Counted from the first letter of the stretch, positions 7,715-64,000 are shown. The stretch is 64,000 bases of DNA from Acidimicrobiia bacterium (GCA_026985095.1 JALSQW010000056.1:133144-197143); one strand, 5' to 3'. Numbers and translations: made by a program. Notes: a model not told the origin generated them from the letters alone.

Positions 7715-9188
7715 GCGCGCCGTCTCGGTCGCCGACGTCGCCGCCCGCATCGCCGGCGCCAGGGTGGTCGGCTCCGGCGGGATCGTCCTCGACGGAGTGG
7801 TCCACGACTCGCGACACGCCGCGCCGGGCGACCTGTTCGTCGCGATCGTGGGGTTCCACACCGACGGACACGACCATGTCCCGGCAGCCATCGAGGCAGG
7901 TGCCGCCGCGGTCGTGGTCGAGCGCGAGCTTGCCGTCGACGTCCCCCAGATCGTCGTGCCCGATGCTCGGGTCGCTCTCGCCGCCGCCGCAGGCGCCGTG
8001 TACGGCGAACCGTCGACCGACCTGGCTGTCGTCGGGATCACGGGGACCAACGGGAAGACGACCGTCAGCTACATGGTGGAGTCGATCCTCGCCGCCGCCG
8101 GGCGGACCTCGGCGGTCGTCGGGACCGTCGGTGCCCGGGTCGCCGGGGAGGAGTTCCCGCTGGAGCGTACGACGCCCGAAGCCGACGACCTGCAGCGGCT
8201 CCTCGCCGCCGCGGTCGACCGCCACGCCTCCGCCGCGATCGTGGAGGTGTCGTCCCATGCCCTCGAGCTTCGGCGGGTCGATGGGGTCCGTTTCGCGATC
8301 GGTGCGTTCACCAACCTCAGCCGAGATCACCTCGACTTCCATCACACCATGGACGCCTACTTCGAGGCCAAGGCGTCGCTGTTCGTCCCCGAGCGCATCG
8401 ACCAAGCCGTGGTCTGCGTCGACGACGACGCCGGACGTCGGATCGCCGGGCGAGGTGCCGTCGAGACGATCACCGTCTCCATCCACGATCCCGCCGCCGA
8501 CGTCGTGGCCATCGACATCGCAGTGGAGAGCTCCGGCTCGTTCTTCGTGGCGGACCTCGACGGCTCGGGTCCGCTCCGCTTCTCGCTTCCCGTCACCGGC
8601 CGCTTCAACGTGCAGAACGCCCTCGTGGCAGCCACCATCGCGACGCTCCTCGGTATCGATCTGGCCTCGATCGCCGCGGGCCTTTCGTCTCTGCGAACCA
8701 TCCCAGGACGGCTCGAGCGGGTCCCGGGAGACCGTCACGTCGTCGTCGACTACGCGCACACCCCCGACGCGGTCGCGACCGTCGTCGCCGCTGCCCGAGA
8801 ACTCACCGACGCCAGAGTGATCGTCGTCGTCGGCGCCGGGGGCGATCGGGACCGGGAGAAGCGTCCGGAGATGGGTCGGGCCGCGGCGGCCGCCGACATC
8901 GCCATCATCACCTCGGACAACCCTCGGTCAGAGGACCCTGCTGCCATCGTGGACGCCGTCGCGCGAGGGGCACGGTCCGTTCCAGGGGCTGTCGTCGTCG
9001 ACGAGCCCGACCGCCGCACCGCCATCAGCCGGGCGATCGACATGGCGGGACCCGACGATCTGGTCCTCATCCTCGGCAAGGGACACGAGCGGGGGCAGGA
9101 GATCGGCGGCGTCGTCCATCCGTTCGACGACCGGGCGGTCGCCGCCGAGATCCTGGCCTCCGACGCCCACAGCGGAGCGGCACGATGA
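7707..9188 (+). CDS. murE: UDP-N-acetylmuramyl-tripeptide synthetase
   Basis: VVGITGTNGKTTVSYMVESIL, DYAHTPDAVATVV, DNPRSEDPAAIV. Confidence 0.95.
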   Translation: MGERAVSVADVAARIAGARVVGSGGIVLDGVVHDSRHAAPGDLFVAIVGFHTDGHDHVPAAIEAGAAAVVVERELAVDVPQIVVPDARVALAAAAGAVYGEPSTDLAVVGITGTNGKTTVSYMVESILAAAGRTSAVVGTVGARVAGEEFPLERTTPEADDLQRLLAAAVDRHASAAIVEVSSHALELRRVDGVRFAIGAFTNLSRDHLDFHHTMDAYFEAKASLFVPERIDQAVVCVDDDAGRRIAGRGAVETITVSIHDPAADVVAIDIAVESSGSFFVADLDGSGPLRFSLPVTGRFNVQNALVAATIATLLGIDLASIAAGLSSLRTIPGRLERVPGDRHVVVDYAHTPDAVATVVAAARELTDARVIVVVGAGGDRDREKRPEMGRAAAAADIAIITSDNPRSEDPAAIVDAVARGARSVPGAVVVDEPDRRTAISRAIDMAGPDDLVLILGKGHERGQEIGGVVHPFDDRAVAAEILASDAHSGAAR

Positions 9189-10537
9189 TCGCAACGAGCG
9201 GGCTGCGCTGGGACCTCGAAGCGATCGCCGCCACCGTCGGGGGCTCCGTGTTCGGAACCACGCCGATCCCCATCACGGCCGTTGAGATCGACTCCCGCCG
9301 AGTCGCCCCAGGATCGCTGTTCGTCGCCCTCCCAGGAGCCCGCGTCGACGGCCACGACTTCGTCGACGATGCCCTGGCGGCGGGCGCCGCCGCGGCGATC
9401 GTGCGGAAGGGTGCCGGGACGACCGCGGTCCCGCGCATCGAGGTCGGCGACACGATCGTCGCCCTGCGCGATCTCGCCGCGCTCCGCCGACGAGAGCTGC
9501 CTGTTCCGACCATCGCTGTCACCGGGTCGACGGGCAAGACCTCCACCAAGGAGCTGATCGCCGCGATCGTCGCAGGGTCGTGGGCCTCGCCCCGATCGTT
9601 CAACAACGAGATCGGCCTGCCGCTCACGGTGCTGGCGGCCCCCGACGACGCCACCGCGCTCGTCCTCGAAGTCGGATCCCGCGGGGCAGGCCACATCCGC
9701 TGGCTCTTGCCCGCCGCGGTTCCCGACGTCGCGGTCATCACCAACATCGGCCTCGTCCACCTCGAGACCTTCGGCACCCAGGCGGACCTCGTCGCCGCCA
9801 AGTGGGAGCTCGTCGAAGGCCTCGGCGACGGCGGGGTCGCGGTGCTCCCCGCCGGCGATCCTCGCCTCGCCGGGAGGTACGCCGGCAGGACGGTCACCTT
9901 CGGCTCGGAGGCCGGCGCCGACGTGCGCGTCGGGGACCTCAGCCTCGACGATGTCGCCCGTCCCCGGTTCACCCTCGACGTCGGCGGCCGGCGACGGTCC
10001 GTTCGGCTCCGGCTCGCGGGTGCCCACCACGCCATCAACGCCGCCGCGGCGGCGGCCGCCGTCGTGGCCTCCGGGCTTCCCATCGACCTCGATGCGATCG
10101 TCGCAGGGCTGGAATCGGCGGTCGGGCAGCAGTGGCGGATGCAGGTCCACCAGGGTCGGTTCGTCGTCGTGAACGACGCCTACAACGCGAATCCGACCTC
10201 CACCGAGTCGGCCCTCCGGTCCGTCGCCGCCATGGGCACCGGCCGCGTCGCCGTGCTCGGCGAGATGGCCGAACTCGGACCCGTGGCCGAGCGTGAGCAT
10301 CGCCGGATCGGCCGCCTCGTCGCCGAACTCGGCTACCGGACCCTGATCGCCGTCGGTGACGTCCACGGCATGGACCGAGCCGCCGGAGGAATCGCCATCC
10401 CCGTCCCGGATGCCGACGCCGCCTTCGCCGCCGCCGTCGACGTGCTCGCACCCGGCGACGTGGTCCTCGTCAAGGCGTCCCGCAGCGTCGGTCTCGAGCG
10501 ACTCGCCGACCGTCTCGTGGAGGAGGCGACGGCGTGA
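9185..10537 (+). CDS. murF: UDP-N-acetylmuramoyl-tripeptide--D-alanyl-D-alanine ligase
   Basis: IAVTGSTGKTSTKELI, NDAYNANPTSTESALRS; ATGA overlap with murE. Confidence 0.96.
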   Translation: MIATSGLRWDLEAIAATVGGSVFGTTPIPITAVEIDSRRVAPGSLFVALPGARVDGHDFVDDALAAGAAAAIVRKGAGTTAVPRIEVGDTIVALRDLAALRRRELPVPTIAVTGSTGKTSTKELIAAIVAGSWASPRSFNNEIGLPLTVLAAPDDATALVLEVGSRGAGHIRWLLPAAVPDVAVITNIGLVHLETFGTQADLVAAKWELVEGLGDGGVAVLPAGDPRLAGRYAGRTVTFGSEAGADVRVGDLSLDDVARPRFTLDVGGRRRSVRLRLAGAHHAINAAAAAAAVVASGLPIDLDAIVAGLESAVGQQWRMQVHQGRFVVVNDAYNANPTSTESALRSVAAMGTGRVAVLGEMAELGPVAEREHRRIGRLVAELGYRTLIAVGDVHGMDRAAGGIAIPVPDADAAFAAAVDVLAPGDVVLVKASRSVGLERLADRLVEEATA

Positions 10538-11598
10538 TCTCCCTCCTCATCGCCTCGGCCATCGCCTTCGCCTTCACCATCTCGGTCACCCCGGCAGCCA
10601 TCCGAGCGTTCCGGCGCCACGACATCGGCCAGTTCATCCAGTCCGAGGTCGAGGGACACATGCACAAGCGCGGTACCCCGACGATGGGTGGGATCGTCAT
10701 CATCGGCGGCGCCACACTGGGGTACGTCCTCGGCCACTTCCGCATCTACACGATCGGTCACGGTTTCGAGCTCACCACCCGTCCCTTCGGGCACACGGCC
10801 CTCCTGGCGCTGTTCGCGTTCTTGGGTATGGGGCTCATCGGCTTCCTCGACGACTACATGAAGTACGCCAGGAAGGAGAACAAGGGCCTCTCGAAGCGAT
10901 GGAAGTTCCTCGGCCAGCTCACCATCGCGGCGCTGTTCGCCGGAGGAGCCGTGATGGCGGGTGCCAGCACCGAGCTGTCGTTCACGCGGCCCCTCGGGAT
11001 CGACCTGGGCCCGTACCTGTACTTCGGGCTCGTGCTGTTCATGCTCACCGCGACGGCCAATGCCGTGAACCTGACCGACGGTCTCGACGGCCTCGTGGCC
11101 GGCTCGGGAGCCCTCGTCTTCGGCGCCTACGTGCTCATCGCCTTCTGGCAGTTCCGCAACCCCGAGTTCTACGGGGTCCCCTCGGCGCTCGATCTGGCCG
11201 TCTTCGGAGCGGCGTTGTCCGGCGCCGCCCTCGGCTTCTTGTGGTGGAACGCCGCGCCGGCGAAGATCTTCATGGGCGACACCGGCTCGCAGGCCTTCGG
11301 CGGGGCGCTGGCGGCGCTGGCGCTGCTCACCAACACCGAGCTGCTGCTCATCCTCCTCGGGGGTCTGTACGTCATGGAGACCCTGTCGGTCATCGGCCAG
11401 GTCTTCGCCTTCCGGGTCTTCGGTCGGCGGATCTTCAAGATGTCGCCCATCCATCACCATTTCGAGCTGGCCGGATGGCCCGAGACGACCGTCATCGTCC
11501 GGTTCTGGATCCTGGCGGGGATCATGGTCGCCATCGGCGTCGGGCTGTTCTACGCCGACTTCATCACCGCCACCGACGGGGGAGTGTTGCTGCCATGA
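10534..11598 (+). CDS. mraY: Phospho-N-acetylmuramoyl-pentapeptide-transferase
   Basis: HMHKRGTPTMGG, NAVNLTDGLDGL, GDTGSQAFGG, PIHHHFELAGWPET. Confidence 0.98.
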   Translation: MISLLIASAIAFAFTISVTPAAIRAFRRHDIGQFIQSEVEGHMHKRGTPTMGGIVIIGGATLGYVLGHFRIYTIGHGFELTTRPFGHTALLALFAFLGMGLIGFLDDYMKYARKENKGLSKRWKFLGQLTIAALFAGGAVMAGASTELSFTRPLGIDLGPYLYFGLVLFMLTATANAVNLTDGLDGLVAGSGALVFGAYVLIAFWQFRNPEFYGVPSALDLAVFGAALSGAALGFLWWNAAPAKIFMGDTGSQAFGGALAALALLTNTELLLILLGGLYVMETLSVIGQVFAFRVFGRRIFKMSPIHHHFELAGWPETTVIVRFWILAGIMVAIGVGLFYADFITATDGGVLLP

Positions 11599-53345: not shown

Positions 53346-54526
53346 GCTCTCGCCCAGACGAACGAGGCCGGTTCGGCGCCTACGGGGGAAGGTTCGCGCC
53401 CGAGACCCTCATGCCCGCGCTCCTCGAGCTGGAGCAGGCGTTCGACGAGGCCCGCACCGATCCGGGGTTCCTGGCCCGGCTCGGCGTCCTCCTCCGCGAC
53501 TTCGTCGGTCGTCCCACGCCGGTGTTCCGTGCCGAACGGCTCTCCGAACGCCTCGGGATCGATCTGTGGCTCAAACGCGAGGATCTGGCCCACACGGGGG
53601 CCCACAAGATCAACAACACCATCGGGCAGGCGCTCCTCGCCGTCGAGATGGGCAAGCCCCGCATCATCGCCGAGACGGGGGCCGGCCAGCACGGCGTCGC
53701 GACCGCGACCGCGTGCGCGTTGCTCGGTCTCGAATGCGCCGTCTACATGGGTGTCAAGGACATCGAGCGGCAGGCGTTGAACGTGTACCGGATGGAACTG
53801 CTGGGCGCCGACGTGCTGCCGGTCTCGGCGGGAGCGGGCACCCTCAAGGATGCCGTCTCCGAGGCGATGCGCGACTGGGTGGCGTCGGTGGAGACGACGC
53901 ACTACATCATCGGATCGGTCGTCGGGCCTCATCCCTTCCCATGGATCGTCAGGGAGTTCCAGAAGATCATCGGGGAGGAACTGATGGTCCAGCTCGACGG
54001 CTCCGAGGGGCGGCCCACCCCAGAGGTCATCGTCGCCTGCGTGGGTGGGGGCTCCAACGCGATGGGTGTCTTCTTCCCGTACGTCGCGGCGGACGCGGAC
54101 GTCGATCTGGTCGGTGTGGAAGCCGCAGGCGAAGGCCTCGACACCGGCCGCCACGGGGCGTCCCTGGTGGCAGGGAGCCCCGGCGTACTCCACGGCGCCA
54201 TGACCTACATGCTCCAGGACGAGCACGGCCAGGTCCTCGAAGCCCATTCGATCTCCGCCGGACTCGACTATCCGGGCGTGGGGCCCGAGCATGCGGCCTT
54301 CCTCGACCGTGGTGCCGTTCGGTACGACGCCGTCACCGACTCCGAAGCGGTCGCCGCGTTCCACCTCCTCGCTCGGACCGAGGGCATCATCCCGGCGCTC
54401 GAATCGTCGCACGCCCTGGCGTGGATCGTCAGGGAGGCCTCCACCCTGCGGGGCAAGACGGTGGTCCTGAACCTGTCGGGCCGGGGGGACAAGGACGTCC
54501 AGCAGGTGGCGGCACTCGATGGTTGA
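53342..54526 (+). CDS. trpB: Tryptophan synthase beta chain
   Basis: [24 protein letters not shown] (PLP lysine), [15 protein letters not shown]. Confidence 0.98.
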
Positions 54527-55349
54527 GCGAGGGATCGACCAGCTGGAGGCCATGTTCGCCCGTGTCCGCGACCGCGGCCGGGCAGCGTTCCTGCCGTACA
54601 TGACCGCAGGCCTCCCCGATCTGTCGAGCTCCGCCGACCTCTTCGTGGCGATGGCCGACGCCGGTGCCGACGGCTTCGAGGTGGGGATCCCCTACGCCGA
54701 TCCGCTCATGGACGGCCCCGTCGTCCAGGCCGCCGGCGCCCGGGCGCTGGCCTCCGGGGTGGACGTCGATCGGGCCCTGGCGGTGGTCGAACAGGTCGCG
54801 TCACGGACCGGGAAACCGACGATCGTGATGACCTACGTCAATCCGGTCCTGCGCCACGGGATCGACGCGTTCGTCACCCGCCTCGCCGATGTCGGCGCCT
54901 CGGGCCTGATCGTCGCGGACCTGCCCGCGGACGAGGCTGAACCGTTCCTGCACGCGGCAGCGTCGGTCGGCATCGGGATGGTGCTCTTCGCGGCCCCGAC
55001 GACCACCGATGCTCGGCTGGCTCGGATCGCGGCGGCTCGGCCGGCGTTCGTCTACGGCATCGCGGAGCTGGGTGTCACCGGGGAGCGACAGGCCGTCTCG
55101 TCGCGAGCTGCAGGCCTGGCCCGGCGGGTGAGGGAGACGATCGACGTGCCGCTCGTGCTCGGCGTCGGGATCACCACGCCGGCCGACGTGGCCGCCGCGG
55201 CCCGTGTCGCCGACGGCGTGATCGTGGGCTCCGCCTTGGTGCGCCGGGTCCTCGACGCGCCAGATCCGGTGGCCGCCGTGCGGACCGTGCGCGAAGCCGT
55301 CGCCGAGCTGGCGGCCGCGACCGAGGTGCCGGACCGTCCGGAGCACTAG
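54519..55349 (+). CDS. trpA: Tryptophan synthase alpha chain
   Basis: [55 protein letters not shown]. Confidence 0.97.
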
Positions 55350-55432: not shown

Positions 55433-56008
55433 GTGGACAGGGCATCGACCGACCGTTCCGAACGGGGCGCCGCGTTGGTCGAGATGGCGCTGGTGGCCCC
55501 GCTGCTGCTCCTGTTGCTGTTCGGCATCGTCGAGTTCGGTTTCGTCTTCAAAGATCGGCTCACGATCTCGCACGCCACCAACGCTGCCGCCCGCACCGGG
55601 AGCACCACGGGGACGGATCCGGCCGCTGATTTCCTCATCCTCGGTGCGGTCGAGGCCGGCCTGACCGGAGCGGTCGACCTCGCCACCATCGATCACGTCG
55701 ACATCTACAAGGCCAACCCGGACGGCTCCAAGTCGGGCTCGTACAACCGCTACTTCGTCGATGCCTCGAGCGCCTGTGGCTGGAACCCGTGTCCGGACCC
55801 GTCCACGGGATCACCCGTGTACGGCAACCCCAGCAACTGGGGAGATCCGTCCAACCGTGACGTCGTCCTCGACGCCGACGGGCTCGATACCCTCGGGATC
55901 GAGGTCCAGTACACGCACACCTGGCTCACGGGCATCCTCGGGTTCGGCCCCGCCACCTGGGTGGAGCAGGCCGAGGTCCGCCTCGAACCGGACGTGTTCG
56001 GACCATGA
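55433..56008 (+). CDS. TadE-like pilus-assembly/secreted protein, cassette 1
   Basis: RGAALVEMALVAPLLLLLLFGIVEFGFVFKDRLT TadE N-terminus; C-WNPCPDPS motif. Confidence 0.85.
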   Translation: MDRASTDRSERGAALVEMALVAPLLLLLLFGIVEFGFVFKDRLTISHATNAAARTGSTTGTDPAADFLILGAVEAGLTGAVDLATIDHVDIYKANPDGSKSGSYNRYFVDASSACGWNPCPDPSTGSPVYGNPSNWGDPSNRDVVLDADGLDTLGIEVQYTHTWLTGILGFGPATWVEQAEVRLEPDVFGP

Positions 56009-57567
56009 CCGTCGCCGAGCTCGGCCGCGACGAGCAGGGCACGGTGATCGTCCTGGTCGCGTTCATGATGCTCGTGATCCTCGGGATGGCCGCCTTCGCC
56101 GTCGACCTGGGATGGATCTACTACAACGGCCAGGAGATCCAACACGGGGCCGACGCGGCGGCCCTCGCCGGGGTGGTGTACGAACCGGACGACCGCTCGT
56201 CCGCGTACTCCCAGGCGGTCCTGGTCGGCTTCCAGAACGGCTACGTCGACGGCACCATGGGTGGCCCCGACACCGTCGACCCGACCGACTTCGTGGAGGA
56301 TCCGACCGCGGTGGAGAATCCCCACCAGCTCAAGGTCGACGTCACCCACCAGGTCCCGACCTTCTTCATGAAGGTGTTCGGGATCGACACGGTCACGATC
56401 ACCCGCTCCGCCACCGCCGAGTACGTGCTCCCGCTGGCGCTCGGCAGCCCCGACAACACGTTCGGCAACGATCCGGCCACCGGCAAGTGGCCGAACTTCT
56501 GGGGCAACATCCACGGGTACTACACCGGCCGCCGGATGGGCGACCGTTACGCCTCGCAGTGCCTGTCCGGCCAGCGCCAGATCGGTTGCACGAAGAACCC
56601 CGAACGCCGCCCCTCGGTCGATGCCGGTCTGCCCACGGCCACCGGCGGCTATCTGTACGGGATCGAGGTCGATCCCGGCGCCGCCGACCTCACGGTCGAG
56701 ATCTTCGACGGGCCGTTCACCCGCGGCGGCGGCGACCTGGTGTTGGTCGGCGATCAACCCCAAGGATCCAGTCAGGGGCCGACGACGGTGTTCATGCTCT
56801 ACGGCCCCGACGAGACGCCGCTGGACACCAACGACGGCAACGAGCTGCTGTGCGTCGTCACCTACAGCCCACGGGATCCATACGCCGACTTCAACGGCGA
56901 CGGGGTGGTCGACGGAGCCGACGACCAGGACGGCGACGGCGATCTCGACTGGGACGACGTCGAGCTCGGCCTCCCCGGCGGCGTCGCCTCCCTGTGGGAC
57001 GAGATGTGCCCGCTCGCCAACCTCGACCGTGGCCCGGGGATCTACCCGCTACGGATCATGGTGGAGGACCCCGGCGGCGCCGACGACCGCGGCCTCAACC
57101 GCTGGTCGTTGCGGACCTCGGCGACGGGGCCGCAACCGAAGATCTTCGGGCTCGGCGACATGGCCATCTACGCCAACGTGGACGGCACGGTGGGCAACAC
57201 GATCTTCTACCTGGCCAACGTCGAACCGGTGCACGCGGGCAAGGACCTCGTCATCGACCTGTGGGACCCGGGGGACGCCTCAGGCAACCACTCGGTCCGG
57301 CTGATCGATCCCGACGGCAACACGCCGGCGTGTGAGTACACCTCGTCGAACGCCTCCTACGGGGGGACCCTTTCGACCTGCGACATCCCCACCTCCAGCG
57401 GCCGGTTCAACGATGAATGGATCAAGATCCGGGTCAGCCTTCCCGCCACCTACACGTGCGGCGCGGACTGTTGGTGGAAGGTCGAGTACAACTACCCGGG
57501 CCGGACGAACGACACCACCACGTGGTCGGCGCGGATCGAGGGGGATCCCGTTCGTCTCGTCAAGTGA
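56005..57567 (+). CDS. TadG-like (pilus Flp assembly TadG N-terminal) secreted protein with Ca-binding loops, cassette 1
   Basis: DEQGTVIVLVAFMMLVILGMAAFAVDLGWIYYNGQEIQHGADAAALAGV; DFNGDGVVDGADDQDGDGDLDWDD. Confidence 0.82.
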   Translation: MTVAELGRDEQGTVIVLVAFMMLVILGMAAFAVDLGWIYYNGQEIQHGADAAALAGVVYEPDDRSSAYSQAVLVGFQNGYVDGTMGGPDTVDPTDFVEDPTAVENPHQLKVDVTHQVPTFFMKVFGIDTVTITRSATAEYVLPLALGSPDNTFGNDPATGKWPNFWGNIHGYYTGRRMGDRYASQCLSGQRQIGCTKNPERRPSVDAGLPTATGGYLYGIEVDPGAADLTVEIFDGPFTRGGGDLVLVGDQPQGSSQGPTTVFMLYGPDETPLDTNDGNELLCVVTYSPRDPYADFNGDGVVDGADDQDGDGDLDWDDVELGLPGGVASLWDEMCPLANLDRGPGIYPLRIMVEDPGGADDRGLNRWSLRTSATGPQPKIFGLGDMAIYANVDGTVGNTIFYLANVEPVHAGKDLVIDLWDPGDASGNHSVRLIDPDGNTPACEYTSSNASYGGTLSTCDIPTSSGRFNDEWIKIRVSLPATYTCGADCWWKVEYNYPGRTNDTTTWSARIEGDPVRLVK

Positions 57568-57680
57568 CGCACTAGTTCCCGCGACGCGCGAGGCAATGGT
57601 CCTCCAGTAGCCGCGCCGGATGGCCGATACTGGTGGTCACCGCGGAGCTGAGGGGCACGCATCGTGAACGACATGGTCGG

Positions 57681-57763
57681 TACCGGGAGTGGGATTCGAA
57701 CCCACACGGGCTTTCGCCCAACGGATTTTGAGTCCGCCGCGTCTACCGTTCCGCCATCCCGGC
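57681..57763 (-). tRNA. tRNA-Leu (anticodon CAA)
   Basis: Minus-strand GCCGGGA...GCGGA-CTCAAAA-TCCGT...long variable arm...GTGGGTTCGAATCCCAC-TCCCGGT-A; acceptor and anticodon stems pair; CAA anticodon. Confidence 0.95.
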
Positions 57764-57897
57764 CGATGTGGCAGGATGCTAGCGGCGTCGGGGGGATCTC
57801 TTCGGGTCCTCTCACGGCGGATGGGTCGGACGACCCCTACCACAAGTGCACTCGATCCGCTACTGTGCGTGGCGATAGGACGCGAGAGGGGCGACAG

Positions 57898-58542
57898 ATG
57901 AACGCGGAGAGTGGCAACACGTCGCCGAGACGATCCGAGCGCGGCGCCGCGCTCGTCGAGATGGCGCTCGTCGCGCCGCTGTTGCTGGTGCTGTTGTTCG
58001 GCATCATCGAGCTCGGGATCGCCTTCAAGGACCGGCTCACCATCGGCAACGGCACCCAGAGCGCGGTGCGGGTCGTCTCCGCCATGGGGCAGCAGACCGA
58101 CGCCGACCTGCGGCTCCTGCAGAGCTTCGAGCAGACCCTCTCGGCGCTGCCCGGCAACGGCGTCGGGATCGTCAAGTACGTCGACGTCTTCAAGGCCGAC
58201 GCCTTCGGCAACCCGGTCGGCGGATGTCCCGGCGGTTCCTGCAACCGCTACTTCTACGTCTACGCCGACGGGACCGGGCCGCTGTGCGACTGGAACCCCT
58301 GCCCCGACCCCTCCGCCGGCTACTCGGGGTGGAACTGGGCCCCGACCGACCGCAGCGTCGAGGTCGGCAGCCTCGACGTGGTCGGGGTACGGATGATCTA
58401 CGGGCACACGTGGATCACGGGCGGGTTCCTCCCGTTGCCGGACGTCAAGTGCGACAACGGCAGTCCTCCGACCAACTGCTGGACCGACACCGCCTTGATG
58501 CGCATGGAGCCACAACAGTTCGGCCTCGGAGGTTCGCCGTGA
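57898..58542 (+). CDS. TadE-like pilus-assembly/secreted protein, cassette 2
   Basis: RGAALVEMALVAPLLLVLLFGIIELGIAFKDRLTIGN; CDWNPCPDPS motif shared with cassette 1. Confidence 0.85.
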   Translation: MNAESGNTSPRRSERGAALVEMALVAPLLLVLLFGIIELGIAFKDRLTIGNGTQSAVRVVSAMGQQTDADLRLLQSFEQTLSALPGNGVGIVKYVDVFKADAFGNPVGGCPGGSCNRYFYVYADGTGPLCDWNPCPDPSAGYSGWNWAPTDRSVEVGSLDVVGVRMIYGHTWITGGFLPLPDVKCDNGSPPTNCWTDTALMRMEPQQFGLGGSP

Positions 58543-60044
58543 TCGCTCGCTCCCTCGAACAGCTTCGAGCCCTTCGCGAGCGGGAGCATGGGACGGTCAT
58601 CCTGCTGACCGCACTGCTGGTGTTCGTCCTCATGGGCATGGCCGCCTTCTCGATCGACATCGGGTGGATCTACTACAACAACCTGCGCGCCAAGAAGACG
58701 GCCGAAGCCGCGGCCCTCGCCGGGGTCGTGCACATGCCGCTGCCGGGCTGTGCCGATCCGACCTCGGGAACCCAGCCCTACGACGTCGCGCTGGCCATCA
58801 GCCAGGTGAACGGGTACACCGACGGCGTGGGAGGCGTGTCCATCAGCCCGTCGATGGGCGCCAACTGCAACCAGCTCACCGTCCAGGTCGACACCAGCAT
58901 CCCGACCTTCTTCATGAACGTGTTCGGGATCTCCACCGTCGCCGTCTCCCAGCAGGCGACCGCGGAGCAGCTCCCACCCCTGAAGATCGGCTCGGACGAG
59001 CCGTACCTGGGTGAAGATCCCACCGTCGGGAGCCGCAACCGCAACTTCTGGCTCGCCACCAACGGCGACTGGACCCCCAAGGGCCAGGGGGACCCGTTCA
59101 CGCCCACCTGCTACGGGGCCGGGTGGACCTCGTGTACCGGCTCGAACAACGAGTTCAAGTCCCCCTCGTACTACTACGCCTTCGACATCCCGGCTGCCGA
59201 AGCGGGAAGCACCGTCACCTTCCAGGTCTTCGATCCCCAGGTCAACGAGGGCGGCGTCACGATCGACTTCAACCGGACCCATCCCGACGCCACCGGCAAC
59301 GAGCCCGTCACCTACACCTTCACCGTCTACGCTCCCGATTCCACCCCCAACGACTGGACCGACAACTCCACGGTCATCTGCAGCAAGACGTTCCGGCGCG
59401 AAGGACAAGCCGGCTACGACCCTTCGGACATGGACAGCTGGGTGTCGCTGTGCTCGACCACGGTGTCGGAGGGGATGTACGTGATGTCGGTGAAGGTCAC
59501 CGGGACCGTGTCGATCCTGAACGCCTGGTCCCTGCGCGCCCTCTCCAACGGCAACTACGACAACCAGGTCGCCGTCTACGGTCTCGGGGCCATGTCGCTG
59601 TGGACGCCGGAGGCGAACCCGCCGGCCCCGACCTTCAAACTCGTCAAGATCGACGAGATCTACGCGGGTCAAGAGATGATCATCAGCCTGTGGGATGTGG
59701 GCGACTTCTCCGTGTCGGGCAACCTGCAACTCATGAACCCGAACGCGGCCGCCGCCGTCAACTCCATCGATTGTCAGGTCCGGACCCGGGACGCCAGCGG
59801 GAACAACCCGACCGCATGGGCGGCCGACGACGGGTCGGGGAGCGTCGGGGAGTGCTACCAGAACATCTCACCGCAGGAACACAACAACGAATGGCTCGAC
59901 TTCCGCATCGAGATCCCCGGCGACTACACCTGCACGGGTCAGGACTGCTGGGCCTGGATCCGGTACGCCTTCGGTGGGGCCACCACCGACCGGACGACCT
60001 GGACGGCCCGGATCAACGGCCAACCCATCCACCTGGTGCCCTAG
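58539..60044 (+). CDS. TadG-like secreted protein, cassette 2
   Basis: EHGTVILLTALLVFVLMGMAAFSIDIGWIYYNNLRAKKTAEAAALAGVV; C-terminal module parallels cassette 1. Confidence 0.82.
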   Translation: MIARSLEQLRALREREHGTVILLTALLVFVLMGMAAFSIDIGWIYYNNLRAKKTAEAAALAGVVHMPLPGCADPTSGTQPYDVALAISQVNGYTDGVGGVSISPSMGANCNQLTVQVDTSIPTFFMNVFGISTVAVSQQATAEQLPPLKIGSDEPYLGEDPTVGSRNRNFWLATNGDWTPKGQGDPFTPTCYGAGWTSCTGSNNEFKSPSYYYAFDIPAAEAGSTVTFQVFDPQVNEGGVTIDFNRTHPDATGNEPVTYTFTVYAPDSTPNDWTDNSTVICSKTFRREGQAGYDPSDMDSWVSLCSTTVSEGMYVMSVKVTGTVSILNAWSLRALSNGNYDNQVAVYGLGAMSLWTPEANPPAPTFKLVKIDEIYAGQEMIISLWDVGDFSVSGNLQLMNPNAAAAVNSIDCQVRTRDASGNNPTAWAADDGSGSVGECYQNISPQEHNNEWLDFRIEIPGDYTCTGQDCWAWIRYAFGGATTDRTTWTARINGQPIHLVP

Positions 60045-60073: not shown

Positions 60074-60346
60074 ATGGGGCGACGAGAGACACGGATCTTC
60101 CGGCTGGGCGACGAGATCGCCGCGCTCGTGGACGCCGAACGGCAACTCGCCGAGGAGCTCGAGATGCTGCGACACATCGACGACGATGCTCGTCGAGACG
60201 CCCTCGTGTCCGAGAGTCCCCTCGACCGGGCCGATGCCAGGGAAACCGCCGCCGACGTCGCCAGGGCCGAGCGGAACCTGACCGACCTCCGTCGCCGACG
60301 CGAGCGGCTCGAGGCCAAGCGCGACCGGCTCATCGGCCGTCTCTAG
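60074..60346 (+). CDS. Small coiled-coil hypothetical protein (90 aa)
   Basis: MGRRETRIFRLGDEIAALVDAERQLAEELEMLRHID...AERNLTDLRRRRERLEAKRDRLIGRL. Confidence 0.7.
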   Translation: MGRRETRIFRLGDEIAALVDAERQLAEELEMLRHIDDDARRDALVSESPLDRADARETAADVARAERNLTDLRRRRERLEAKRDRLIGRL

Positions 60347-60388: not shown

Positions 60389-63013
60389 ATGAAGATCGCC
60401 CTCCTCGACGGACACAGCCTGGCCTACCGCGCCTTCTACGCCCTCCCCTCGGACCTGGCCACGCCGGCCGGGCAGGTCACCAACGCCGTGTTCGGGTTCA
60501 CGTCGATGCTCATCAAGTTGCTCACCGAACAGCGTCCCGATGCGGTCGTCGTCGCCTGGGACATGCCGGGTCCCACGTTCCGGACCGAAGCCTTCCCGGC
60601 CTACAAGGCTCAGCGTGAGGCCGCGCCCGACCTGTTTCGCGAACAGGTCCCCCTCATCCGCGACGTGCTCGACGCGCTCGGCATCCCGCAGATCGGCGTC
60701 GAAGGCGTCGAAGCGGACGACGTCATCGCCACCTTGGCCTCCGAGGCGAGACGGCGAGGTTGGGACGTCCTGGTCGTCACCGGCGACCGAGACGCGTTCC
60801 AGCTCATCGAACCCGGCATCACCGTCCTGTACACACGACGGGGGATCTCCGACACGGTGGAGGCGACCGCCGACTGGCTCGACGAACGCTACGGTGTCGC
60901 CCCCGAGCGGTACGTCGACTACGCGGCGCTGCGGGGCGATACCTCCGACAACCTCCCGGGCGTTCCCGGGGTCGGCGAGAAGACGGCGGCTCGGCTGATC
61001 AGGGACCACGGCGACCTCGAAGGCATCTACGAGCATCTCGACGAGATGACGCCCAAGCTCAGGGAGAACCTCGAGACCGCCAAGGACCAGGTGTTCTTGA
61101 ACCGGGAGCTGATGCGGCTTCGCCGGGACATCGAGCTCCCCGCCATCGACCTCGACGCGCTGCGTCTCGGGGACTTCGACAAGAGCGCCGTCAAAGAGGT
61201 GTTCGATGCCCTCGCCTTCCGCAACCTGTGGGACCGCCTGGCCGAGTACGGCGGATTCGCCACCACCGAGGCCGACACCATCGACACCGATGTCGTCGCC
61301 GCCGGGGACGACGACGACATCGCCGCCCTGGCTGCAGGCGGGGACCCGGCCGTCGAGCCGATCTGGGACGCCGACGCTCTCGCCGGCCTCGTCATCGCCG
61401 CCGTCGATGGGCGGACCGTCTACGTTCCGTCCGAGCGGCTCGACCCCTTCCTCGACGCCCTGGGTCGGAACGGGGGAGGGATGGTGCTGCACGATGCCAA
61501 ACCCGTCGTCCGGGCGCTCATCGAGATGGGACTCGACGCCCCGGTGGCCTTCGACACCGCCCTCGCCGCCTACGTCATCAACCCGGCGCAACGCGCTCCG
61601 GACCTCGACGAGTTGGCCTACCGGGAGCTCGGGCTGACCGTCGGTCCGGCGGTCGACGACGGTGGCGTCGACGACCAGGGCGCGTTCGACTTCGCCGGAT
61701 CGGGCCCGGACCTCGATGGCGCTGCACGTCGAGCGATCGCCGCGGGGCGTCTCGTCGATCCCCTCATCGAGCGCCTCGTCGCGCGCGGCGGACGGGAGCT
61801 CTACGACGAGATCGAGCGTCCCCTCGTCCCGGTGCTGGCGAGGATGGAGGTGGCCGGGATCGGTGTCGACCGCGCGTACCTCGAGATGCTCGGCAAGGAC
61901 CTTCGCGACCGGCTCGGTGCTCTCGAGGCGGAGATCCATGACGCCGCCGGCGGCCCGTTCAACATCAACTCGACCCTGCAGTTGCGTGAGCTCCTGTTCG
62001 ACCGCCTCGGCCTGCCCGTCGTCAAGAAGACCCCCAAGGGTGCCCCATCGACGGACGCGTCGGTGCTGGAGAAGCTCGAGGACCACCATCCGATCGTGGC
62101 GGCCATCCTGCGGTACCGGGAGCTGGAGAAGCTCCGATCCACCTACGTCGATGCGCTCGTCAAGCTCGTCGAGCCCGACGGTCGTATCCGTGGCCGATTC
62201 AACCAGATGGCCGCGTCCACCGGACGGCTCTCCCAGGAACAGCCCAACCTGCAGAACATCCCGATCCGGACCGAGGAGGGTCGTGCCATCCGCCGAGCCT
62301 TCGTGGCGGCCGACGGGGCGACCTTCGTCGTCGCCGACTACTCCCAGATCGAGCTGAGGATCCTGGCGCACCTGTCGGGCGATCCGGGCCTCGTCGAGGC
62401 GTTCGCCAACGACATCGACATCCACACCGCCACCGCAGCTCGGGTCGACGGCGTCGCCGTCGACGCCGTCACCTCCGATCAGCGCCGGCGGGCGAAGATG
62501 ATCAACTTCGGTCTGCTGTACGGGATGGAGGCCTACGGGCTCGCGCAGCGTCTCGGCATCGACCGGGACGAGGCCCAGGCGCACATCGATGCCTACTTCT
62601 CACGCTTCCCCCACGTCAAGGAGTTCATGGACGGGATCGTCGACCAGGCACGGGCGACCGGCTACACGACCACCATCCTCGGTCGGCGACGCTACCTGCC
62701 GGAGCTCTCCAGCTCCCGGTTCCGGGACCGGCAGATGGGTGAGCGGATGGCGCTCAACGCCCCGATCCAGGGCTCGGCCGCCGACATCATCAAGAAGGCG
62801 ATGATCGATCTCGACGGGGAACTGCGCGGTCGGCGGCTCGGCACAGAGATGCTCCTCCAGATCCACGATGAGCTCGTCCTGGAGGTGCCCATCGATGAGC
62901 TCGACGAGGTGACGACGTTGACTCGGAGCCTCATGGAAGGGGTCGTCGAGCTACGCGTCCCCCTCAAGGTCGAGATGGGCACCGGTCCGACCCTGGCCGA
63001 CTGCACGCATTGA
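60389..63013 (+). CDS. polA: DNA polymerase I
   Basis: 5'-3' exonuclease N-terminus (LLDGHSLAYRAFYALP, GDRDAFQLI), polymerase motifs FVVADYSQIELRILAHLSGD, RRRAKMINFGLLYGMEAYGLAQRL, LQIHDELVLEVP. Confidence 0.97.
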   Translation: MKIALLDGHSLAYRAFYALPSDLATPAGQVTNAVFGFTSMLIKLLTEQRPDAVVVAWDMPGPTFRTEAFPAYKAQREAAPDLFREQVPLIRDVLDALGIPQIGVEGVEADDVIATLASEARRRGWDVLVVTGDRDAFQLIEPGITVLYTRRGISDTVEATADWLDERYGVAPERYVDYAALRGDTSDNLPGVPGVGEKTAARLIRDHGDLEGIYEHLDEMTPKLRENLETAKDQVFLNRELMRLRRDIELPAIDLDALRLGDFDKSAVKEVFDALAFRNLWDRLAEYGGFATTEADTIDTDVVAAGDDDDIAALAAGGDPAVEPIWDADALAGLVIAAVDGRTVYVPSERLDPFLDALGRNGGGMVLHDAKPVVRALIEMGLDAPVAFDTALAAYVINPAQRAPDLDELAYRELGLTVGPAVDDGGVDDQGAFDFAGSGPDLDGAARRAIAAGRLVDPLIERLVARGGRELYDEIERPLVPVLARMEVAGIGVDRAYLEMLGKDLRDRLGALEAEIHDAAGGPFNINSTLQLRELLFDRLGLPVVKKTPKGAPSTDASVLEKLEDHHPIVAAILRYRELEKLRSTYVDALVKLVEPDGRIRGRFNQMAASTGRLSQEQPNLQNIPIRTEEGRAIRRAFVAADGATFVVADYSQIELRILAHLSGDPGLVEAFANDIDIHTATAARVDGVAVDAVTSDQRRRAKMINFGLLYGMEAYGLAQRLGIDRDEAQAHIDAYFSRFPHVKEFMDGIVDQARATGYTTTILGRRRYLPELSSSRFRDRQMGERMALNAPIQGSAADIIKKAMIDLDGELRGRRLGTEMLLQIHDELVLEVPIDELDEVTTLTRSLMEGVVELRVPLKVEMGTGPTLADCTH

Positions 63014-63198: not shown

Positions 63199-64000
63199 AT
63201 GGCCATCGAGAACGAGAACGAGCTCACCGTCGACGGTGAGGAACCACAACAGGTGACACCCGTCACCGAGACGGGTGCCGCCGGCACGGAGCCGGTCGCC
63301 GAGCCCGCCGCCGAGACCGCCGGTGCAGAATCGAAGGCCGCCGCGTCCGCAGCGGCCCCGGACGTCGAGGCCCCGACGGGGCCGACGACCGAGGCGACGG
63401 CCGGAACCACCGAGGCGGCGGAAGAGGCCACGGCCACCGGGCCGATCGGAACGCCCGGGCCCGTCGAGCACCCGCCGGCACCGCGCGAGGAACGCCCCGC
63501 CATCACCGCCCCCAAGGATCTGGGCGACCTGCCCGAGGACCTCTCGGCCGAGGACTTCGCCGCCGCCGTCGAGCGCACCGTCTTCCAGTTCAAGGAGGGG
63601 GACATCGTCGCCGGCACCGTCGTGCGGGTCGATCCCGACGAGGTCCTCGTCGACATCGGCTTCAAATCCGAGGGGGTCATCCCCTCCAAGGAACTGTCGA
63701 TCCGCAACAACGCGAACCCTGCCGACGTCGTATCCGTCGGCGAGGAGATCGAAGCGCTCGTCCTCCAGATGGAGGACGAGAACGGCCGACTCGTGCTCTC
63801 CAAGAAGCGGGCCCAGTACGAACGTGCCTGGGGCCGGATCGAGCGGATCATGCAGGAAGGCGGCACCGTATCGGGTCCGGTCATCGAGGTCGTCAAGGGC
63901 GGACTCATCGTCGACATCGGCCTGCGCGGGTTCCTCCCGGCCAGCCTCGTCGATCTGCGTCGGGTCCGCGACCTGCAGCCGTTCGTCGGTGAGGTGATCG
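63199..64000 (+). CDS. rpsA: 30S ribosomal protein S1, 3'-truncated by window end
   Basis: AAGGAG upstream; after acidic/Ala-rich N-terminus, FKEGDIVAGTVVRVDPDEVLVDIGFKSEGVIPSKELS and VSGPVIEVVKGGLIVDIGLRGFLPASLVDLRRV S1 repeats. Confidence 0.93.
   Translation, partial: MAIENENELTVDGEEPQQVTPVTETGAAGTEPVAEPAAETAGAESKAAASAAAPDVEAPTGPTTEATAGTTEAAEEATATGPIGTPGPVEHPPAPREERPAITAPKDLGDLPEDLSAEDFAAAVERTVFQFKEGDIVAGTVVRVDPDEVLVDIGFKSEGVIPSKELSIRNNANPADVVSVGEEIEALVLQMEDENGRLVLSKKRAQYERAWGRIERIMQEGGTVSGPVIEVVKGGLIVDIGLRGFLPASLVDLRRVRDLQPFVGEVI

Follow-up and report, generated by a model that had tools for sequence, protein, structure and literature searches.

The subject of this analysis is two tandem tadE-tadG gene pairs in a stretch of 64,000 nucleotides from an Acidimicrobiia bacterium (GCA_026985095.1), bases 133144-197143 of contig JALSQW010000056.1 (here C56; the whole stretch is called the window). 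We consider it probable, at roughly 0.7, that each pair encodes a minor-pilin tip complex of a Tad (type IVc) pilus, the one with core genes close by on the same contig, and that one machine has both pairs, and probably a third long pair on contig C64, as its alternative tips. What computation shows is which genes are present and how their order recurs in relatives, which signal residues the proteins carry, what fold is predicted, that partners segregate together, and that domains are replaced at a common genomic site; from these we infer cleavage, contact between TadE and TadG, tip position, priming and ligand binding. The pairs are best read as a known kind of Tad tip pair with a new head domain and a new genomic arrangement, for which a surface or adhesin-type role is plausible.

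Both pairs are on the plus strand, and in each, tadG stands directly downstream of tadE with an overlap of 4 nucleotides, in a genome that bears a tad core: tadE1 (55433-56008; 191 amino acids, GTG start) is followed by tadG1 (56005-57567; 520 amino acids), and tadE2 (57898-58542; 214 amino acids) by tadG2 (58539-60044; 501 amino acids). A preliminary description of this DNA had reported these open reading frames, and their positions, order and strand are confirmed, as is the C-terminal module it had recognised in both TadG proteins, which falls within a full-length alignment of TadG1 and TadG2 (31% identity, E 7e-76). TadE1 and TadE2 are 43% identical (E 2e-37) and have the motif CxWNPCPDPS in common; the likeness within each set is far beyond chance and is conserved in dozens of relatives. 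Both TadE proteins match the Pfam family TadE (PF07811) above its curated cut-off (56.7 and 49.8 bits against 22.9; E 3e-15 and 4e-13), and the N-termini of both TadG proteins match Tad (PF13400; 39.7 and 30.8 bits against 22.3; E 6e-10 and 4e-7). An internal ATG, preferred by a simple gene caller as the start of tadE1, was rejected because it would delete the prepilin signature that relatives retain.

That signature, G/xxxxE before a hydrophobic helix, is present in TadE1 and TadE2 (RG/AALVEMALVAPLL; G/AALVE in TadE1), and the glutamate at +5 occurs in 140 of 148 TadE family members. Among TadG sequences the glycine is found in all 56 alignable rows; Leu, Met, Phe and Ile predominate at position +5, and the residues listed there do not include Glu. 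In TadG1 the cleavage position is Gly12, within a long N-terminal pilin helix (residues 3-57; 56011-56175) that likewise has no Glu at +5. Type IV filaments, according to a review, have at their tip a complex with a cap subunit that lacks Glu5, from which assembly begins (PMC10191384). The missing Glu5 in TadG is what one would expect of a minor pilin that caps the tip; together with the literature, it leads us to infer that TadG is located at the pilus tip or in the fibre. We propose a model in which a prepilin peptidase would cleave TadE and TadG after the conserved glycine, and the N-terminal helices of TadE, with Glu5, and of TadG, without it, would pack together at the membrane. TadG would cap the resulting complex, which would prime the polymerisation of Flp by TadA, TadB and TadC and, carried outward at the pilus tip, would display the two beta-sandwich domains of TadG as a binding head.

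It is less easily reconciled with these features that the pairs should be membrane-embedded assembly or secretion factors of the Tad system, with beta-sandwich heads that remain at the envelope. TadG has indeed been tabulated as a component of the cytoplasmic-membrane sub-complex (PMC10191384), a point that must be set against a tip position, but the prepilin-type N-terminus and the missing Glu5 argue otherwise. Moreover, Aggregatibacter TadG has been detected in fibre preparations and CpaL of Caulobacter crescentus, which is orthologous to TadG and contains a VWA domain, has been modelled at the Tad tip (PMC12607857), while the Kil tips are genetically linked to their pilus (PMC12075869). We consider a purely membrane-bound role unlikely.

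The machine that the pairs would serve lies just outside the window. The tad core occupies 198042-205580 of C56, after polA and rpsA, at a distance of 4.9 kb from the second pair. The genes that follow rpsA are, in order, cpaB/rcpC, tadZ, tadA, tadB, tadC, a gene for a 453-amino-acid protein and two flp genes, and then those of a response regulator and a histidine kinase. The core's Pfam matches are T2SSE, T2SSF (twice), RcpC and AAA_31; the Flp_Fap matches of the two flp genes are under the curated cut-off. Whole-genome searches for TadE and Tad domains found none at this core, whereas the other two tad loci of the genome, on contigs C8 and C28, have short TadE/F/G-like genes of their own. 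The C56 machine thus has no minor pilins of its own, and its nearest candidates are the pairs in the window. An outer-membrane secretin is expected to be absent in monoderms, and the lack of a match to the secretin RcpA (PF00263) in the genome is not counted against membership of a Tad locus.

The association between pairs and core is also seen in relatives. The order tRNA-Leu(CAA), tadE-tadG pair or pairs, polA, rpsA, cpaB-tadZABC recurs in the window's family (f1) and in a second family of the order, f7. Within the window, trpA (54519-55349, plus strand) is the left neighbour of this slot and polA (60389-63013, plus strand) the right one, as judged by gene calls and synteny, with rpsA beginning at 63199 on the plus strand and continuing past the window's end at 64000. 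The tRNA-Leu(CAA) gene (57679-57763, minus strand), which sits between the two pairs and was not mentioned in the preliminary description, is a constant landmark of the trpA-polA slot and, like trpA, is kept in relatives. In f1 and f7 the number of pairs between the tRNA and polA is 0, 1, 2 or 3 and more, and where pairs are absent trpA and polA are 545-714 bp apart. Unusually, in the window's genus one of the pairs stands between trpA and the tRNA. The f7 slot carries TadG proteins with VWA domains, either by themselves (G062) or together with a beta-sandwich TadG (G055), and in families f2 and f4 the block of polA, rpsA and tad core is still in its place. A genomic arrangement of this kind is consistent with several tip clusters being interchangeable on one pilus. 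More speculatively, the slot may be a cassette site at which Tad tip pairs with tandem beta-sandwich, VWA or other heads are acquired, lost and exchanged within this actinobacterial order, most of whose members are uncultured, such that one machine could show a changeable set of tips that bind glycans and perhaps serve in attachment to particles or other cells.

Beyond the slot, the distribution of the C-terminal module points in the same direction. An orthologous TadA is present in 44 of 48 genomes with the module and in 27 of 71 without it, counts that are not corrected for phylogeny, and a TadA-like match was found in all four of the module genomes that lack the orthologue and in all nine further module genomes. 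In ten genomes with the core and without the module, TadE genes are present somewhere in every case. Related genes extend to Nocardioides, Phycicoccus, Aquihabitans and Chloroflexota, the module being rare across the phylum (6 of 291 genomes). One Chloroflexota locus (L150) is an array of histidine kinase, response regulator, flp, tadZ, tadA, tadB, tadC, two tadE genes and a tadG with the module, and at another locus (L132) an E-G-E cluster adjoins cpaB-tadZABC.

The preliminary description was right that the window holds no core tad gene, but this is so only because cpaB begins about 0.9 kb past the window's end. It had concluded that the pairs were 'orphan' cassettes, a two-protein surface or secretion product that stands alone, uses TadE/G-like anchors and has no need of a Tad pilus. 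In other families pairs are often found away from the core, and four genomes lack an orthologous TadA at the strict cut-off, as such a system would allow; but a core that lacks tadE/F/G lies close by and is syntenic in relatives, some TadA-like match exists in every module genome checked, related genes follow tadC in L150 and stand in or beside tad loci elsewhere, and prepilin signatures are retained. The genome-wide search revealed a tad locus without TadE/F/G of its own, in essence the finding that the preliminary description itself had named as counting against it. This and the survey of neighbourhoods in f1 and f7 leave the 'stand-alone' interpretation unsupported, and we regard it as improbable. 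That the pairs serve the C8 or the C28 locus, or several machines, and that their nearness to the C56 core is an inherited neighbourhood only, seems to us just as doubtful, since those loci have their own E/F/G genes and the module co-occurs with the C56-type TadA, even though the housekeeping neighbourhood (trp, polA, rpsA) is conserved anyway and the slot may be empty with the core present.

Several observations nonetheless weigh against the pairs being tips of the adjacent pilus. The genes polA and rpsA stand between them and the core, and families f2, f4 and f6 carry E-E-G-E-G arrays elsewhere, far from the core. The co-occurrence counts ignore phylogeny, and the 27 genomes noted above hold a TadA orthologue without the module; one of the four module genomes without the orthologue is 95% complete, and the TadA-like matches in these four, with identities of 38-51%, may represent different ATPases of the T2SSE family. 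One genome (G058) has the core and, by profile, only one TadE, which resembles that of another tad locus, and the tadG of L150 is disrupted by a frameshift or an assembly error. Finally, the genome yielded a single A24 prepilin peptidase domain (C66:16398-16727, L027), and this is on another contig, beside other secretion-ATPase (T2SSE) genes.

In considering what the proposed tips might display, we turn to the structure of the TadG head. The AlphaFold model of TadG1 (predicted local distance difference test, pLDDT, 88.4; predicted template-modelling score, pTM, 0.81) comprises the helix spanning residues 3-57, a short stretch of helix and strand that reaches to about residue 140, and two beta-rich domains that strand order and fold-search neighbours suggest are beta-sandwiches. 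The first would cover residues of about 161-376 (56485-57132, boundaries approximate); the second, residues 377-520 (57133-57564), is the conserved C-terminal module, to which 59565-60044 of tadG2 aligns, and was modelled alone with a pLDDT of 86.3. The module has no secure match in Pfam, NCBIfam, PDB sequences or PDB folds, the best Pfam matches of its family having E 0.002-0.007 in only 1-2 of 60 members, and Foldseek against PDB returned no match at E <= 0.001 for either beta-rich domain. The preliminary description of the module as unclassified therefore stands, with only a sub-threshold beta-sandwich resemblance to qualify it. The weak best Foldseek neighbours include a xylanase bearing a carbohydrate-binding module (CBM), CBM4 and GOLD domains. 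The C-terminal domain shares its general fold with the beta-sandwich CBMs of solved structure (CBM4, CBM15, CBM22), which are among its best weak neighbours, but differs in having low template-modelling (TM) scores and no significant match to any CBM family or structure by Pfam, PDB sequence or Foldseek. A lectin role for the head is therefore a suggestion only. Pfam finds no VWA domain in TadG1 or TadG2, unlike the slot TadGs of f7. A weak hit among PDB sequences, to an entry with the name neurotoxin (E 0.83), was put down to chance, and a tandem duplication of the two beta-sandwich domains is not claimed, the comparison yielding 24 alignable columns only and a probability of 63%.

Trees of 43 TadG proteins and their partner TadEs define two old paralogous lineages within the family, here named T and R from their TTTW and RTTW/RTVW ends, and the window holds one pair of each, the first of T type and the second of R type. 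The earlier view that the pair had duplicated and diverged is upheld as regards paralogy and the shared module; the duplication itself is old and family-wide, and a recent local event is rejected because TadG1 and TadG2 belong to separate lineages. Within the family, TadGs of the T type have partner TadEs from the T lineage, and those of the R type from the R lineage, a single swap (G012) excepted, while the TadE tree is less resolved outside the family. Such co-segregation fits a physical partnership with occasional exchange.

The arrangement has analogues in other Tad systems. Interchangeable Tad tips were proposed in 2025 for the Kil pilus of Myxococcus xanthus, where the interchangeable Tips come from four paralogous TadE/F/G-like clusters (PMC12075869). 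As in the window, several paralogous clusters are associated with one Tad pilus and a large TadG-like pilin has a variable C-terminal head; however, Kil Tips (KilLMN) are heterotrimers tied to predation and to a needleless type III secretion system, while the window's family has two-gene pairs. CpaL resembles TadG1 and TadG2 in its pilin-like N-terminus, extra C-terminal domains and predicted tip position, and VWA-type TadGs stand in the f7 slot, but it has a VWA domain in place of two beta-sandwiches. Canonical tad loci (PMC10191384) share with the window the TadE and Tad domains, the prepilin cleavage signature and an association with TadZABC and Flp; the window's pairs differ in standing outside the core operon, before polA and rpsA, in two copies and with a large unclassified TadG head. 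They offer an independent and compact case in a monoderm lineage, with tip genes at a fixed landmark beside the machine. The number of tip genes varies and head domains differ between families. The case opens the interchangeable-tip idea to comparative genomics, and a TadG head domain missing from the searched family libraries is brought to notice.

The third long pair of this genome lies near a contig end (L024, C64:99000-110090, at 8195-10711). Its TadG resembles TadG1 and TadG2 only in about 60 N-terminal residues and has an unrelated head, and it was therefore rejected as a third copy. Its tadE overlaps an ECF-type sigma factor gene (PF08281, PF04542), and it is possibly a sigma-controlled tip pair. 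The lone prepilin peptidase, set against three tad loci and further T2SSE ATPases, would have to process all prepilins, or other peptidases are too divergent to detect.

Around the window's pairs, a promoter search found no sigma-70-type promoter, and terminator-like sites were not clearly above the expected number. Between tadG2 and polA lies a small conserved gene (60074-60346, plus strand; gene call and synteny) whose 90-amino-acid product matches no Pfam family above cut-off; it keeps its place near tRNA-Leu and polA even in relatives without pairs. In the core, the 453-amino-acid protein encoded after tadC (L020 6585-7946) has no Pfam match and occupies the same place in relatives; we would guess that it is a membrane glycosyltransferase of the pilus. 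The two flp genes (L020 8020-8193 and 8408-8581) are convergent to the core and encode near-identical products of 57 amino acids with SLP/SMP ends, and a further Flp-like pilin gene (C56:41413-41547, L177) lies far from every tad core found in the genome.

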